A model generated the notes under the pieces. The model searched no databases. It saw only the letters and a program-made list of their open reading frames with translations, and was not told the origin of the DNA. DNA of 64,000 bases, taken from NCBI GenBank assembly GCA_947625225.1, contig CANQNQ010000002.1, forward strand, positions 1-64,000, given 5' to 3'. Shown piece by piece: positions 39,381 to 47,445 of this stretch (within the stretch, counting starts at the first letter, position 1; every line of letters begins with the position of its first letter). The position numbers and the translations under genes were made by a program. The stretch comes from an uncultured Clostridia bacterium (GTDB lineage Bacteria; Bacillota; Clostridia; Christensenellales; CAG-917).

Positions 39381-39467
39381 ATTATATTCATTATAAATAG
39401 ACTAAAAAACATCTAAAACGCGGGCGCGTCCCGCGCGAATCGATTGCTTTCATACAGGAGGCGAACA

Positions 39468-42400
39468 ATGAGAAAAAGACTTTTGACGGTTGTCTGCGTA
39501 GCTCTTGCACTTATTTTGGCGCTTGGCGTGTTTGTTGCGTGCAACAAGGACAAGGATAAAGACTTCACCGTCACGTTTAAGGACGGATCCGACGTCGTCA
39601 AGACTGTCAGCGTACAGAGAGGTGGCGGGCTTGCCGCCAAGGATATCCCCGCCGCGCCCAAGCACGAAGGCGAGGTCTTTGACGGCTGGTATGTGGACGC
39701 CGACGTCGTTTCGACAGGCTATGTGCCCTCCGGCAGCATCACCGCGCTTGCCAAGTACCATACTCCCGCCGCGGGCGAATACATAGTGAAGTTTTCGCTT
39801 GGCGAATACGATGGCAACGGCTCCGCTCCGTCGGATATGGCGGCGACCAGCGGCATGCTTGTGGAGCTGCCCAACGTTGATTTCGACTTCCAAGGTTTGA
39901 TATTCGGCGGCTGGCAGATAGAGGGTCAGACGGGCACGCTGTACGGCGCGGGCGATGTATACCAGGTGTTTGGCAGCGTCAACTTTGTCGCGACCTGGGT
40001 GGTGAACGAGGCGGCGGCAGACGTCACTTTGAGCTTTGTCGCAAACGGCGGCAGCGACACCGCGGCTGTCACGGCAAAGCCGGGCGAGCTTATAAACGCG
40101 CCTGCGGCTCCTCAAAAGCAGGGCTTGACCTTTGTCGGCTGGTATACCAATGCGGAGCTGACAGGGGAGGCGGTGCAATTCCCCGCGCGCATGCCCAAGG
40201 ACGGCGGCACCTACTATGCAAAGTGGGCGACTCGCTATATCGTGAGGAGGCAATTGCAGAATGTTGCGGGCGACGGCTACACACCCGACGACGTAATATA
40301 TGACATTCCCGAAGGGGATCCCATCACCGAGGTGGACGTCACCGCGGCGATAACCGGTTTTGTATTTGTGGACGGCGAGACAGTGTTCACCCCCGTAAAC
40401 GGCGGCGTGTACGAGCTGAAGTACGACAGACAGCACTACACCGTGACCTACAAGCTCAACCTCGATGACTATGAGGTTGAAAACGAGCAAGTGGACAGCG
40501 TCGTCTACGGACAGAGATACAAGGTTGCGGAGCAGCTTTACGGCGGCGCGGAGGGCTATATGTTCAAGGGCTGGTCCGAGGCGGAGGAAGGCAGTGTGGT
40601 CAAGGAGTACGTCACCATAACGGGTCCCATGACGCTGTACGCGCAGTGGCTGGAAGCATATCTTGACGCCAACGGCGGCTACGACTACATCTACTACGAC
40701 GCCGACGCGCCCTCAAAGATATACCTTGAAAGACTGGGCATGGACGATTATGTCGAGGGCAAGTTTGACGTCGCTACGCAGAAGTTTATGTTCAACATGA
40801 GCGATTTCCAGCTGACGGGCACCCTCAATCAGGAGGTAGGCAGCTACTGCTACGACGTGGGCGACAAGACGTACTATTGGTACAATGACGCGAAAGAAAG
40901 CATAGAGGAGGACAGTTATGTCGTGCTGCACGACGACGGCACCGCCAAGGTGAAGGTGACGGACGGCGTGTTCAGCAGATACAAGGCAGGCAATGACGGG
41001 CTGGAAATTCAGACCTTGCCCGCGGGCGAATATGACAACGTGACCTATCTCTACGACAGCGGCAACTTCGATTATGTGCTGACCATCACGGCGGACAACG
41101 GCACCGTGTACGAGTTCGGCTTTGCCAACGGTTGGGCAAACAAGCTCCGCGACGATTCTCCCGACATGGCGCACTTCGATGTGTTCTTTACGCGCGGACT
41201 CGAGGCGGGCTACTACTGCGTGGGCATAGACGAAGAAGGCTATCTTGACACCAGCCTTATTGTAATACTCACCGGTTACGGCACGGCGATCGTCGTTATG
41301 GACACTGAACAGTATGTTTGCGAATACGAAGTGTATGAAACGGATCTCGGCCTCGGCGTGGAAGCGGTGCTCGATTTGTCAAGCACAGGCGTCAACAGAG
41401 TGCTGCGCATCCTGTCCAGCGATTATATCGGCACGACCACAAGCGGCTACATCCTGCGCGGCCTGAGCCAATACAATGGCATGGGCGAGGATGGCGTCTA
41501 CACCAACGGCAACGAAAGCCTGTTCCTCACCGGTTACAGCCTCGCTTTGGAGAACGTAGCCGCAAACGAGCTTTATGACGGCTATTGCAACGCCATACTC
41601 AGCATAAATGGCAGAAATGAGAATATGAAGTATGTCGTCAGCGACTACTTTGACAGCGAGTACTATGGCGACGACTTTGTAGGATTGGAAAATACTCAAT
41701 ACAGTTTGTACATTTTGAATTTGTACAGCGCTGTCGACGGCGCATGGCAACCTTACAACAGGCAGGCATACGCGCTTGCAAAACTAGTGGGCAAGGAGTG
41801 GCAGTTTAGCTTTGGCTGGATGCCGGACGAGCTGACTCAAGCAAATGATTCATATTTCTATGCCGACCTCACCGAGGGCAGCTTGGATCTCGGCTATATA
41901 ATTATGAAGGCCGATAGCGCCTCGCAAAACGGCGGCGCAATGATGTTTGTGGACAAAGCCGGCAACGTGAAAGTCGGCACCTATGCCAAGGACGCGGTCG
42001 ACGGGCAGTATACCTTCACCGCGGACAGCACGAGTCTGAAGTTCCGCTTGCAGGCTTACGACGATGATTCCACGTTCCAAATGTTCTTCGCTTACAGCCC
42101 GGACAACCACGTCATCAACGGCGAGTTCAAACACGACAACGAAATGTTGTCCATCGACTTCATTTGGGCGTCATATGTGGACGCGTACGGGATCCAGCAC
42201 AACGGCACTTACTACGACGTGACCGATGGCAGCAGCCCGACGTACAAGTTTGTCTGCGCGGACGAGAATTGTGACATTGCCTTCACTTTTACTGTCGAGG
42301 ACGGCGGGGACGGCGAGGACGACAAGTTTATCCTTTCGGACGAGGCGGCGGTTGACGCAACGGACTACTTCTATCTGGATCTGGAAGAGCAAAGTATTTA

Positions 42401-44033
42401 CACCGGCCTCAAATTGACCGTGGACGCTTCGCTCAACGCGACAATAAGCAACTGCGACGATCCCTCGGTGGACTCTCCCGTGTTCACGGAAGTGGTGAAA
42501 GGCAAGCTTGAAGTTTTCGACCTCATCAACGGAATTTATACGTTTGCCAACTTGCAGGTGAGTGATGAAGACCTTGCGACCGAATTTGGGATGAATGATA
42601 GCTTCAATGTGATGTTCCTGACAGTGACCGCAACGGGCGGCGTGCAGATGAATGCGTTTATGACATCCGACCACTTGGCTGGCACATATACCGTTAAGGA
42701 TTTGAAGGGACAGCCCGCAAATATCACCTCCCTTGGTCTCAACGGCTTTGGCGACGGCACCATGGAAATGGCTGCCGAGGGCTTGTTGATGATCGCCAAC
42801 TATACCGTGTCGGCGTACCGCGACGGGCACTACATCGTCACGCTGGCGGCAGGCAGCACAAGTTATTCCTTTGAATTGAATACCTCGGACAACACCGCAG
42901 TCTTGCTCGACAGTGAGGGCTTCATGATGTACAATCTGACCGATGGCATGTATATTTACAACGTTTATATGCTGTTGGACGGCAAGGGCAATGTGGACAT
43001 CATATACTATGACAGCAAAACAGATGAGACAAAGACGGTAAGCGAATCCACAAGCACATACGATATGGATGAGGAAAATCCCGGCTACGGCAGTGTGACC
43101 CTCAATTATGTCGTCTTTAGTGAAGGGACGGATATGTCATATACGCAAAAGGTGCATTGGAATGACAACGTCGATTATTTGCGCGATGTATACGGCATGA
43201 CCGAAAATTTCCAATTTGTGTTGGTCACGTTGGGTAGCTACCAGTGCTTCCTGGTGTACAATGAGGCGTTGGAAGATATCTTTGTGTGCGACGACGGCTC
43301 CGTGCTTGTGACGGATGGCTATTTCCAGGCCGAATACATCGACAAATACGGCAACTACTATTCAAGCGGGCAGTTTGTTATAGAGGAGCGCGAATATTAC
43401 AATGTCTATCTGGAGTCTACGACAATTGATTTGCTCAGGTTCAGCAGCAACGATGACTTCACCTTTGTACTGTTTGACGACGGCACTTTCCACCGCGTTG
43501 GCAACGAGATAGGCGCATACGATTATTTTGGCTCGGCAACCGTTTACTTTGATGGAGAGGGTGGGTTCTTGTTCAACAGTGATACGTTGGGCATTATGTT
43601 TGGCACATATGTCCTCGAAGATGACATCTACTCTTCCGCTACGGGCTATATCTATCAAGAGGTCACCGTGACCGTCCCCGAGGATTACGACGATGACGGC
43701 AATCCAACGGGTTACGTTGATTTCAGATTCCAGCTCGACCAAAACAGCTATAGCTGCTACCTGTATGACGAGAGCATTGCAGGCGAATTTACCAATGATG
43801 TGAGCAACAATACTGTCGTAAACATGTATGGCAACGGATATATGGAGTTCTTGATTGTGTTGGAGGACGGTACGCAGGTGGCTGTGGTGCTGTACAGCAT
43901 TGAAGAGGAAGCGGACGGCGAAGAATGCTATACATGCATTATGGTGGACCTCGAAACCCTGGTGGCATACACTTTCAGCTTGGACCTTGTAAACAAGACG
44001 TACGTCTATTCAGGTATGGAATCTTTGACTTGA
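39468..44033 (+). CDS. giant cell-surface lipoprotein with InlB/Flg_new-type repeats
   Basis: This 1,521-residue protein starts with a lipoprotein signal (MRKRLLTVVCVALALILALG, lipobox FVAC). Residues ~30-400 hold Listeria-Bacteroides (Flg_new/InlB-B) repeats, each ending in an FxGW...YAKW-type strand: EVFDGWYVDA, LTFVGWYTNA with YYAKW, and YMFKGWSEAE with LYAQW. The remaining ~1,100 residues are a long run of divergent beta-rich repeats dominated by Asp, Tyr, Gly and Thr. There is no transmembrane anchor at the C-terminus, so attachment is by lipid only. GGAGG precedes the ATG. Likely a surface adhesin or scaffold; no enzyme motif is seen. Confidence 0.85.
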   Translation: MRKRLLTVVCVALALILALGVFVACNKDKDKDFTVTFKDGSDVVKTVSVQRGGGLAAKDIPAAPKHEGEVFDGWYVDADVVSTGYVPSGSITALAKYHTPAAGEYIVKFSLGEYDGNGSAPSDMAATSGMLVELPNVDFDFQGLIFGGWQIEGQTGTLYGAGDVYQVFGSVNFVATWVVNEAAADVTLSFVANGGSDTAAVTAKPGELINAPAAPQKQGLTFVGWYTNAELTGEAVQFPARMPKDGGTYYAKWATRYIVRRQLQNVAGDGYTPDDVIYDIPEGDPITEVDVTAAITGFVFVDGETVFTPVNGGVYELKYDRQHYTVTYKLNLDDYEVENEQVDSVVYGQRYKVAEQLYGGAEGYMFKGWSEAEEGSVVKEYVTITGPMTLYAQWLEAYLDANGGYDYIYYDADAPSKIYLERLGMDDYVEGKFDVATQKFMFNMSDFQLTGTLNQEVGSYCYDVGDKTYYWYNDAKESIEEDSYVVLHDDGTAKVKVTDGVFSRYKAGNDGLEIQTLPAGEYDNVTYLYDSGNFDYVLTITADNGTVYEFGFANGWANKLRDDSPDMAHFDVFFTRGLEAGYYCVGIDEEGYLDTSLIVILTGYGTAIVVMDTEQYVCEYEVYETDLGLGVEAVLDLSSTGVNRVLRILSSDYIGTTTSGYILRGLSQYNGMGEDGVYTNGNESLFLTGYSLALENVAANELYDGYCNAILSINGRNENMKYVVSDYFDSEYYGDDFVGLENTQYSLYILNLYSAVDGAWQPYNRQAYALAKLVGKEWQFSFGWMPDELTQANDSYFYADLTEGSLDLGYIIMKADSASQNGGAMMFVDKAGNVKVGTYAKDAVDGQYTFTADSTSLKFRLQAYDDDSTFQMFFAYSPDNHVINGEFKHDNEMLSIDFIWASYVDAYGIQHNGTYYDVTDGSSPTYKFVCADENCDIAFTFTVEDGGDGEDDKFILSDEAAVDATDYFYLDLEEQSIYTGLKLTVDASLNATISNCDDPSVDSPVFTEVVKGKLEVFDLINGIYTFANLQVSDEDLATEFGMNDSFNVMFLTVTATGGVQMNAFMTSDHLAGTYTVKDLKGQPANITSLGLNGFGDGTMEMAAEGLLMIANYTVSAYRDGHYIVTLAAGSTSYSFELNTSDNTAVLLDSEGFMMYNLTDGMYIYNVYMLLDGKGNVDIIYYDSKTDETKTVSESTSTYDMDEENPGYGSVTLNYVVFSEGTDMSYTQKVHWNDNVDYLRDVYGMTENFQFVLVTLGSYQCFLVYNEALEDIFVCDDGSVLVTDGYFQAEYIDKYGNYYSSGQFVIEEREYYNVYLESTTIDLLRFSSNDDFTFVLFDDGTFHRVGNEIGAYDYFGSATVYFDGEGGFLFNSDTLGIMFGTYVLEDDIYSSATGYIYQEVTVTVPEDYDDDGNPTGYVDFRFQLDQNSYSCYLYDESIAGEFTNDVSNNTVVNMYGNGYMEFLIVLEDGTQVAVVLYSIEEEADGEECYTCIMVDLETLVAYTFSLDLVNKTYVYSGMESLT

Positions 44034-46334: not shown

Positions 46335-46973
46335 ATGAAACAATATCCCAATGTAACCATCTTCAATCATCCGCTCATCCAGCACAAGGTCGCCATCTTG
46401 CGCGACAAAAACACCGGGATGAAGGAGTTCCGCGAGCTCGTCGAGGAGATAACCACCCTTATGGTGTTCGAGGCGTTCAAGGACGTCCCCACCAAGACCG
46501 TCACCGTGGAAACTCCGCTTGAAACCGTGCCTCAGACCATGGTGGCAGACAATGCCGTCACCATCGTGCCAATCCTGCGCGCGGGCCTCGGCATGGTCAA
46601 TGGTGTGCATACGCTGTTTCCCACAGCCAGAGTAGGGCACATCGGTCTCTACCGCGACGAGGAGACTCTCGAGCCGCACGAGTACTACTGCAAGCTCCCC
46701 GAGGGCATCGAGAACAGCATCGCCATCTTGCTTGACCCCATGCTCGCCACCGGCGGCAGCGCAGTCGGAGCCATCGACCTGCTCAAAAAGCGCGGCTGCA
46801 AGGAGATCCGCCTTATGAACATCATCGGCGTCCCTCAGGGCGTCGAAGCCGTCGCCTCCGCGCATCCCGACGTGAAGATCTATGTGTCCACTCTCGACCG
46901 CCAGCTCAACGATGTGGGCTATATTTTGCCGGGATTGGGGGATGCGGGCGATCGCCTCTTCGGCACCAAATAA
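46335..46973 (+). CDS. upp: uracil phosphoribosyltransferase
   Basis: Upp converts uracil and PRPP to UMP in pyrimidine salvage. The 212-residue protein has the type signatures [19 protein letters not shown], the PRPP loop [16 protein letters not shown], and the C-terminal uracil-binding [20 protein letters not shown] precedes the ATG. It works with the upstream permease to take up and trap uracil. Confidence 0.96.
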
Positions 46974-46986
46974 AACCGCACCAGAC

Positions 46987-47164
46987 AGCGAATAACTGCG
47001 TCAGGGGCAACGCTCCGACGACCGTGTACAAAAAGTACACTAGGTCGCCGATTCGTTGCCCCTTTCTTGTTCTTCATCTGCCCGGAGCGGTTTTATGCAA
47101 ACCAACAAAATTACATTGGGCGGCTAGGCAAACCTCGCGCTATACATCTAAATCACACAGTTTT
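46987..47164. repeat. structured ~180-base repeat, copy A
   Basis: Conserved 5' flank AGCGAATAACTGCGTCA. Outer stem GGGGCAACG (47004-47012) with CGTTGCCCC (47054-47062). Inner stem CGACCGTGTAC with GTACAC-TA-GGTCG, having a two-base TA bulge and an AAAAA loop (47030-47034). Conserved 3' flank TTGTTCTTCATCTGCC and GGAGCGGTTTTATG, ending ATCTAAATCACACAGTTTT. It begins 13 bases after the upp stop. Non-coding by appearance. Confidence 0.75.
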
Positions 47165-47175
47165 TATATATAAAT

Positions 47176-47217
47176 CAGGGGTCCCCAAGCAAATGAGCTT
47201 GCGAATTTGTTGGGGTA
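47176..47217. repeat. GGGGTCCCC hairpin 1
   Basis: CCCCAAGCAAAT (47183-47194) pairs with ATTTGTTGGGG (47205-47215) with one bulged G. It is preceded by AAATCAGGGGT. Same frame sequence as hairpin 2 but a different stem interior. Confidence 0.65.
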
Positions 47218-47219
47218 AA

Positions 47220-47262
47220 TCTGGGGTCCCCGCGAAAACACCTTGTGTTTTTGTGGGGTATA
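47220..47262. repeat. GGGGTCCCC hairpin 2
   Basis: CCCCGCGAAAACAC (47228-47241) pairs with GTGTTTTTGTGGGG (47245-47258) over 14 bp, including two G-T pairs, with a CTT loop. Preceded by TCTGGGGT as in hairpin 1. Confidence 0.65.
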
Positions 47263-47264
47263 GG

Positions 47265-47445
47265 AGCGAATAACTGTGTCAACGTCCGTTTTCTTCACGT
47301 CATGTACAGCAAGTACATTAGGCGTTTGAGAACGGACGTTTCCTTGTTCTTCATCTGCCTGGAGCGGTTTTATGTTAATCAACAATTACATTAGTCGGCT
47401 TGGCAAGCCCTTCTTTCGCGCTATGCATCTAAATCACGCAGTTTT
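47265..47445. repeat. structured ~180-base repeat, copy B
   Basis: Same flanks as copy A (AGCGAATAACTGTGTCA; TTGTTCTTCATCTGCC; GGAGCGGTTTTATG; ATCTAAATCACGCAGTTTT). The outer stem is AACGTCCGTT (47281-47290) with AACGGACGTT (47331-47340), unrelated in sequence to copy A but perfectly paired. The inner stem CGTCATGTAC with GTACAT-TA-GGCG keeps the TA bulge. Confidence 0.75.

Follow-up and report, generated by a model that had tools for sequence, protein, structure and literature searches.

The window, as we call the whole stretch of 64,000 nt analysed here, comes from an uncultured Clostridia bacterium and carries upp, a gene with a match in 26 of the 28 relatives searched, with a cluster of palindromic repeats behind it (Table 1). 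Further upstream, 5' of the uracil permease-like and upp genes, lies a predicted lipoprotein-like ORF of 1529 aa with repeated GW-type motifs (39444-44033). The first of the repeats, element A, is complete and displays the fold of the whole family, which consists, from the outside in, of an outer helix, a 7-bp helix with an obligatory pyrimidine mismatch, a variable stem and an apical RYGTAC hairpin. Covariance model R1, which includes A among the nine sequences from which it was built, matches this element with 119.9 bits (46973-47097). On the sense strand, the folding energy of A has a z-score of -5.2 against dinucleotide shuffles, and that of element B, which retains only the 3' arm of its outer helix, one of -2.3. 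A and B are the only separate elements matched by R1 over the window. Their common flanks share 85-94% identity, and the 5' arm of A is 89% complementary to the 3' arm of B (inverted repeat I1), making pairing between the two possible.

The stems, bulge, loops and repeats ascribed to A and B in a preliminary description of this locus were all found where it had placed them. The stem it regarded as the outer one is real as well, but it occupies the middle of the structure, the true outer helix of A being formed by 46970-46988 and 47078-47096. Similarly, the two direct repeats of about 180 bases exist, but B does not repeat the A unit in full, because the last ~55 nt of each "copy" are the 3' half of an element from a third subfamily, a complete relative of which is present at L010.

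Table 1. Features of the upp locus (positions in the window)
Feature	Position	Strand	Basis and remarks
upp (uracil phosphoribosyltransferase)	46335..46973	+	predicted ORF; stop codon TAA 46971-46973 belongs to the hairpin
Element A, complete stop-codon-anchored hairpin	46970..47096	+	R1 match and RNA fold
A, 5' outer arm ATAAAACCGCACCAGACAG, includes upp stop codon	46970..46988	+	inverted repeat I3 with 47078-47096
A, 7-bp helix, 5' strand GAATAAC	46990..46996	+	family-wide 7-bp helix with one pyrimidine mismatch; pairs with GTTCTTC 47069-47075 except for one T-C mismatch
A, variable stem and apical hairpin	47004..47062	+	inverted repeat I2, fold
A, variable stem alone	47004-47012 / 47054-47062		GGGGCAACG / CGTTGCCCC
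A, apical hairpin	47020-47046		GACC-GTGTAC-AAAAA-GTACAC-TA-GGTC; TA bulge 47041-47042
A, 3' outer arm CTGCCCGGAGCGGTTTTAT	47078..47096	+	inverted repeat I3
3' half of third-subfamily element, 5' half lost; outer-arm remnant CTAAATCACACAGTTTT	47109..47164	+	direct repeats D2/D3
Two REP-like GGGGTCCCC...GGGGTA hairpins between A and B	47177..47262	+	direct repeat D4
Element B	47264..47374	+	R1 match 47263-47374, 90.2 bits, outer pairs unformed
B, 7-bp helix	47268-47274 / 47346-47352		
B, variable stem	47281-47293 / 47328-47340		AACGTCCGTTTTC / GAGAACGGACGTT
B, apical hairpin	47298-47324		CGTC-ATGTAC-AGCAA-GTACAT-TA-GGCG
B, 3' outer arm	47355-47373		5' outer arm missing
Second 3' half of third-subfamily element, after B	47384..47445	+	direct repeats D2/D3

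A and B are members of an undescribed family of ~127-nt imperfect palindromes situated on stop codons; the genes concerned are unrelated to one another, number dozens and belong to a set of uncultured Clostridia from the gut. Ten copies were detected in their own genome (1.52 Mb) by the apical-hairpin pattern; R1, built from nine copies of this genome, recovered the pattern-found copies together with a few weaker ones. In total, 27 of the 60 genomes searched carried the family, and 18 of the 20 members of the genus were positive (own genome counted). Up to 50 R1 matches were obtained per genome where at most 58 candidates were scored, and one congener yielded 62 matches in 373 kb, some of which are antisense duplicates of the same palindrome. 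Order-wide, 40 of 396 genomes were positive at E <= 1e-5, with dense occurrence in three genera of one family and sporadic occurrence in seven other families. A pattern scan of public genomes pointed to uncultured Clostridia MAGs, Candidatus Limadaptatus stercoripullorum and a MAG filed as Christensenella sp. UBA1260, whereas the same kind of search in viral contigs gave no match. Since MAG assemblies break at the element, all copy counts are lower bounds; one genome was used per species, and the copies are related, so that the counts do not represent independent events. In being short and non-coding, bounded by terminal inverted repeats and present in many copies, the elements qualify as MITEs of the ERIC/RUP type. 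Neither strict nor relaxed Rfam searches (gathering score or E <= 1) gave a match over the elements, in agreement with the earlier proposal of a new structured RNA family. The family was absent from one congener (G013, 94% complete), so whatever its function, it is dispensable.

What the preliminary description did not include is the anchoring of the elements to stop codons. The outer helix begins at the stop codon of the upstream gene or one base 5' of it, and gene-associated copies are oriented as the gene (sense). In 64 of 72 gene-associated copies, 27-31 nt separate the stop codon from the conserved GTCA, and in 34 the spacing is exactly 29 nt. The stop codon was fully paired in 51 of these copies (TAA-TTA in 40, TGA-TCA in 11). 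Even the last base of the last sense codon, which varies from gene to gene, paired with the 3' flank in 46 of the 72 (mean of 19.8 and maximum of 33 in 2000 shuffles); pairing was weakly enriched at base -2 and not significant at base -3. In the congener with 373 kb of sequence, nearly every copy standing first in an array has its start at the TAA that closes a long ORF upstream and follows the orientation of that gene. The host genes are ordinary ones, for example upp, guaA, phosphofructokinase, gyrA, mnmA and glutamine synthetase, as well as genes for an Obg-type GTPase, a mfd-type helicase, an aldolase, and ABC and FtsX proteins. We know of no bacterial interspersed palindrome that is locked to stop codons in this way, the stop codon and the bases opposite it changing together base by base.

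Hairpins at gene ends might simply be ordinary intrinsic (rho-independent) terminators which happen to start at the stop codon and were multiplied by recombination. Terminators in species with runaway transcription reportedly lie near stop codons. Such species can terminate close to translation (Johnson 2020, cited in PMC13323073). Copies of TAA type end in GGTTTTA, their outer helix closing with UUUU, and a plain terminator follows upp in several species where the element is lacking (G004, G012, G017, G001, G019 and G010). However, a U tract is missing from copies of TGA type (e.g. GCGTCAGGTAAC), which have 2.75 T per 12 positions against 6.26, and for this reason termination alone is insufficient. 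Moreover, a hairpin of 127 nt with conserved internal motifs far exceeds what termination needs, and in G031 a separate normal terminator is located just downstream of the upp element. We consider this the least probable of the explanations discussed here.

The copies are amplified, mosaic and arrayed: an intact one adjoins the gene and damaged ones stand behind it, with exact TTTTAC|GTAAAAC junctions in tandem arrays. The arrays of G001 (L118-L137) open with an intact element; those that follow have lost the 5' outer arm, and two classes of linkers, TTTCTTTATCTTATG... and TTGATATATATTTTTGTGG..., join them. Turnover at individual gene ends is considerable. Elements behind upp in G000, G008, G009, G031, G002 and G006 have unrelated outer arms. 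The guaA gene is followed by an element in seven species, always with TAA; where no element is present, guaA ends in TGA or TAA. In the ~90% identical pair G015/G018, eight of the ten element loci compared were occupied in both genomes, often by a different subfamily; presence/absence and subfamily replacement were both seen in this pair, and the empty-site analysis revealed no clean insertion footprint.

The palindrome may also extend into its host gene. It enters the coding region by about 11-15 nt in upp of G002 and G006 and in the G018 gene at L229, and stems reaching into coding sequence follow the synonymous changes there. In rex, the 5' outer arm is itself coding sequence, and although 7 of its 17 positions differ between two species (L210 and L217), both arms are perfectly paired. 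We also considered that a core might have been inserted into a terminator already in place, which would then form the outer helix. This was dropped because a single outer arm is common to many genes of G001, although the arm does contain host sequence at rex, L229 and upp of G002/G006. As for losses, an outer helix without its core was observed at L233 (G018, ~1660-1740; GTAAAAACGCG...CGCGTTTTTAC), apparently as a deletion derivative.

Complete replacement of the arms between A and B had been taken in the preliminary description as proof of selection on a fold. As stated, this reasoning is not supported: A and B contain different stem modules of a shuffled family. The nine founding copies from the own genome showed double changes in 26 of 49 pairs, and four of five covariation measures were not reached by any shuffle. 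To avoid circularity, 18 further copies, 16 of them from genera outside the model, were aligned by sequence alone. Double changes were present in 33 of 41 pairs, and 91.5% of cells were paired, compared with 37-50% in slid-structure controls. An unpaired stem region in further copies, named at the outset as grounds for abandoning the fold, was thus not encountered; pairs covary beyond the founding copies as they do in structured RNAs, with the caveat that templated copying can mimic this. In the same 18 copies, the T-C column of the 7-bp helix was mismatched in every one. Tabulation of this helix in 65 copies revealed exactly one (pyrimidine) mismatch, at position 3, 4 or 5, in 53 of them, in variants such as GAATAAC/GTTCTTC, GAAATAC/GTCTTTC, GCTATGC/GCCTAGC and GATTGAC/GTCACTC. 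Most copies also retain the GTCA/TTYC internal loop and the apical hairpin.

The manner in which the pairs change is unlike that of a typical RNA helix evolving by point mutation and stepwise compensation: double changes outnumbered one-sided G-U changes by 153 to 6 cells in the 18-copy set, and G-U pairs make up ~1% of standard pairs. With G-U intermediates nearly absent, ordinary RNA compensation is insufficient as an explanation. Both strands, sense and antisense, fold about equally well. The strand test gave G-U against A-C cells as 81 to 33 in the first count, but a recount over 72 copies attributed 37 T-G cells to one fixed column and left the remainder nearly balanced, so the test is not decisive.

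Template switching during replication has been reported to create and maintain hairpins, with arms made or repaired in one event (PMC8794818). As templated arm copying yields the same pattern, covariation alone does not prove selection on RNA. The whole fold could even be devoid of function, its pairing being a mutational by-product of template switching that makes and perfects inverted repeats, and the double changes lacking G-U intermediates and the stems copied from coding sequence (rex, L229, upp) would fit this. Yet if arms were corrected without bias, the T-C mismatch, the GTCA/TTYC loop and the apical bulge would be removed, but all three persist, and elements standing behind the first copy have lost their 5' arm rather than being corrected. 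Nor would template switching explain the stop-codon register and why the pairing breaks off sharply one base before the stop. A fold without function appears very unlikely to us, although slightly less so than a mere terminator. The mismatch that is never paired within a covarying helix and the fixed stop-codon register argue for a selected fold.

The main rival to our preferred reading is an element acting primarily at the DNA level, i.e. a non-autonomous, MITE-like palindrome (as ssDNA or cruciform) whose insertion is directed to the ends of coding sequences, where it duplicates some adjacent bases in inverted form, any RNA effect being secondary. Several of the observations above would fit such an element: high and variable copy number, near-identical modules at unrelated genes, the exact tandem junctions, a palindrome running into host coding sequence, and the near absence of G-U pairs together with the lack of a strong strand preference. 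The mismatches are strand-asymmetric, of the kind used by recombinases. On the other hand, none of the three enzyme types searched tracks copy number. The Y1 HUH transposase is absent from G001, G002, G003 and G006 and present in the copy-less G019 and G022; no reverse transcriptase (PF00078) was found in G000, G001, G002, G006, G032 and G035; and none of 21 genomes contained an integron integrase (TIGR02249) over the cut-off. Transposition or recombination, options already mentioned in the preliminary description, thus stand without a mobilising enzyme among the three types searched. Furthermore, we are aware of no transposase that targets strict sense orientation and exact stop-codon register, and positions are conserved between species (G015/G018). 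The flanks read TA...TA in TAA copies and TG...CA in TGA copies, no clean empty site was found, and a target-site duplication was not recognised. We regard a DNA substrate in the first place as a possible but rather doubtful explanation.

The location and orientation of the elements, their register and the mismatch that stays unpaired point towards a fold which some factor reads and which is linked to where translation ends. The reading we prefer, to which we assign about an even chance, is that of a sense-oriented 3'-UTR hairpin copied among gene ends as a non-autonomous repeat, with arms matched partly by templated copying. This hybrid, in which selection keeps the fold while templated copying and recombination supply the arms, is proposed because G-U pairs are nearly absent and neither strand is clearly preferred. 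The upstream mRNA would carry the element as its 3' UTR, where a long hairpin would form and set or shield the mRNA 3' end, as an RNase barrier or an RNase III-type processing site; in TAA-type copies, the outer helix ending in UUUU might additionally help termination. Spread to gene ends, and replacement there, could proceed by copying from other loci, through recombination/gene conversion or transposition, and the arms might stay complementary in part because one serves as template for the other during replication. The fold would be retained since the mismatch, the GTCA/TTYC internal loop and the apical hairpin are presumably required by the factor reading it. The most likely role, judging from ERIC and NEMIS (PMC2229807), would be protection or processing of mRNA 3' ends.

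A more specific variant, which we consider unlikely, is that of a sensor of translation termination: any ribosome positioned at the stop codon would keep the outer helix open, and without the ribosome the helix would close over the stop, so that 3'-end formation or decay would be set by how often ribosomes reach the stop codon. If true, this would be the first RNA element known to us whose defining pairs include, and co-evolve with, a stop codon. More generally, the dozens of natural replicates per genome could allow RNA-structure selection to be separated from templated arm copying, which are usually confounded, and they raise the question of how a repeat finds or keeps the exact end of a reading frame.

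Several known systems share some of these properties. Integron attC sites are imperfect palindromes right after a stop codon, with a variable stem, conserved pairing and unpaired features. The elements described here are alike in all these respects but have no R/L box consensus at their ends, are not accompanied by an integron integrase over the cut-off, and follow fixed housekeeping genes rather than cassettes. REP and BIME palindromes occur as many interspersed gene-end hairpins with mismatched stems, in mosaic arrays, and resemble our family in these traits. In contrast to them, our elements are several times longer, always in sense orientation and anchored on the stop codon by the first copy, and the most heavily loaded genomes lack a RAYT-type Y1 transposase. 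Similar in size and build are the ERIC/IRU/RU-1 elements of enterobacteria, likewise MITE-like imperfect palindromes of ~127 bp present in many copies in transcribed intergenic regions; ERIC RNA was reported to modulate the stability of upstream mRNA in an orientation-dependent, ribosome-influenced manner (reviewed in PMC2229807). However, they belong to a different phylum and share no recognised sequence with the stop-codon hairpins, for which no TA target duplication was recognised; the stop-codon-fixed outer helix, wholesale stem covariation, obligatory mismatch in the 7-bp helix and tandem arrays also set the latter apart. NEMIS/Correia and RUP are MITEs of comparable size (~107-155 bp), and NEMIS RNA hairpins were proposed to be RNase III substrates (PMC2229807). 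Here, no IS630-like TA duplication was recognised, and the stop-codon anchoring and whole-stem turnover are new.

Other palindromes accompany the stop-codon hairpins. The GGGGTCCCC...GGGGTA hairpins between A and B represent a separate repeat family, with matches on contigs C1, C7, C9, C18 and C26 of the own genome. Copies were also seen at L009, L024, L053, L122 and L123, and those at L053, L122 and L123 (G000, G001) are located inside the loops of stop-codon hairpins, as if the loops were their target. The end of contig C9 (L003, G000:C9) and the start of contig C26 (L006, G000:C26) lie inside near-identical copies of the stop-codon element. Another palindromic family, GGGGACGGAGCAAAAATGTTACATTTG...CCTCCGTCCCC, is present in several copies in the same genome (L024 1360-1830, L002 2015-2090 and L006 115-190).
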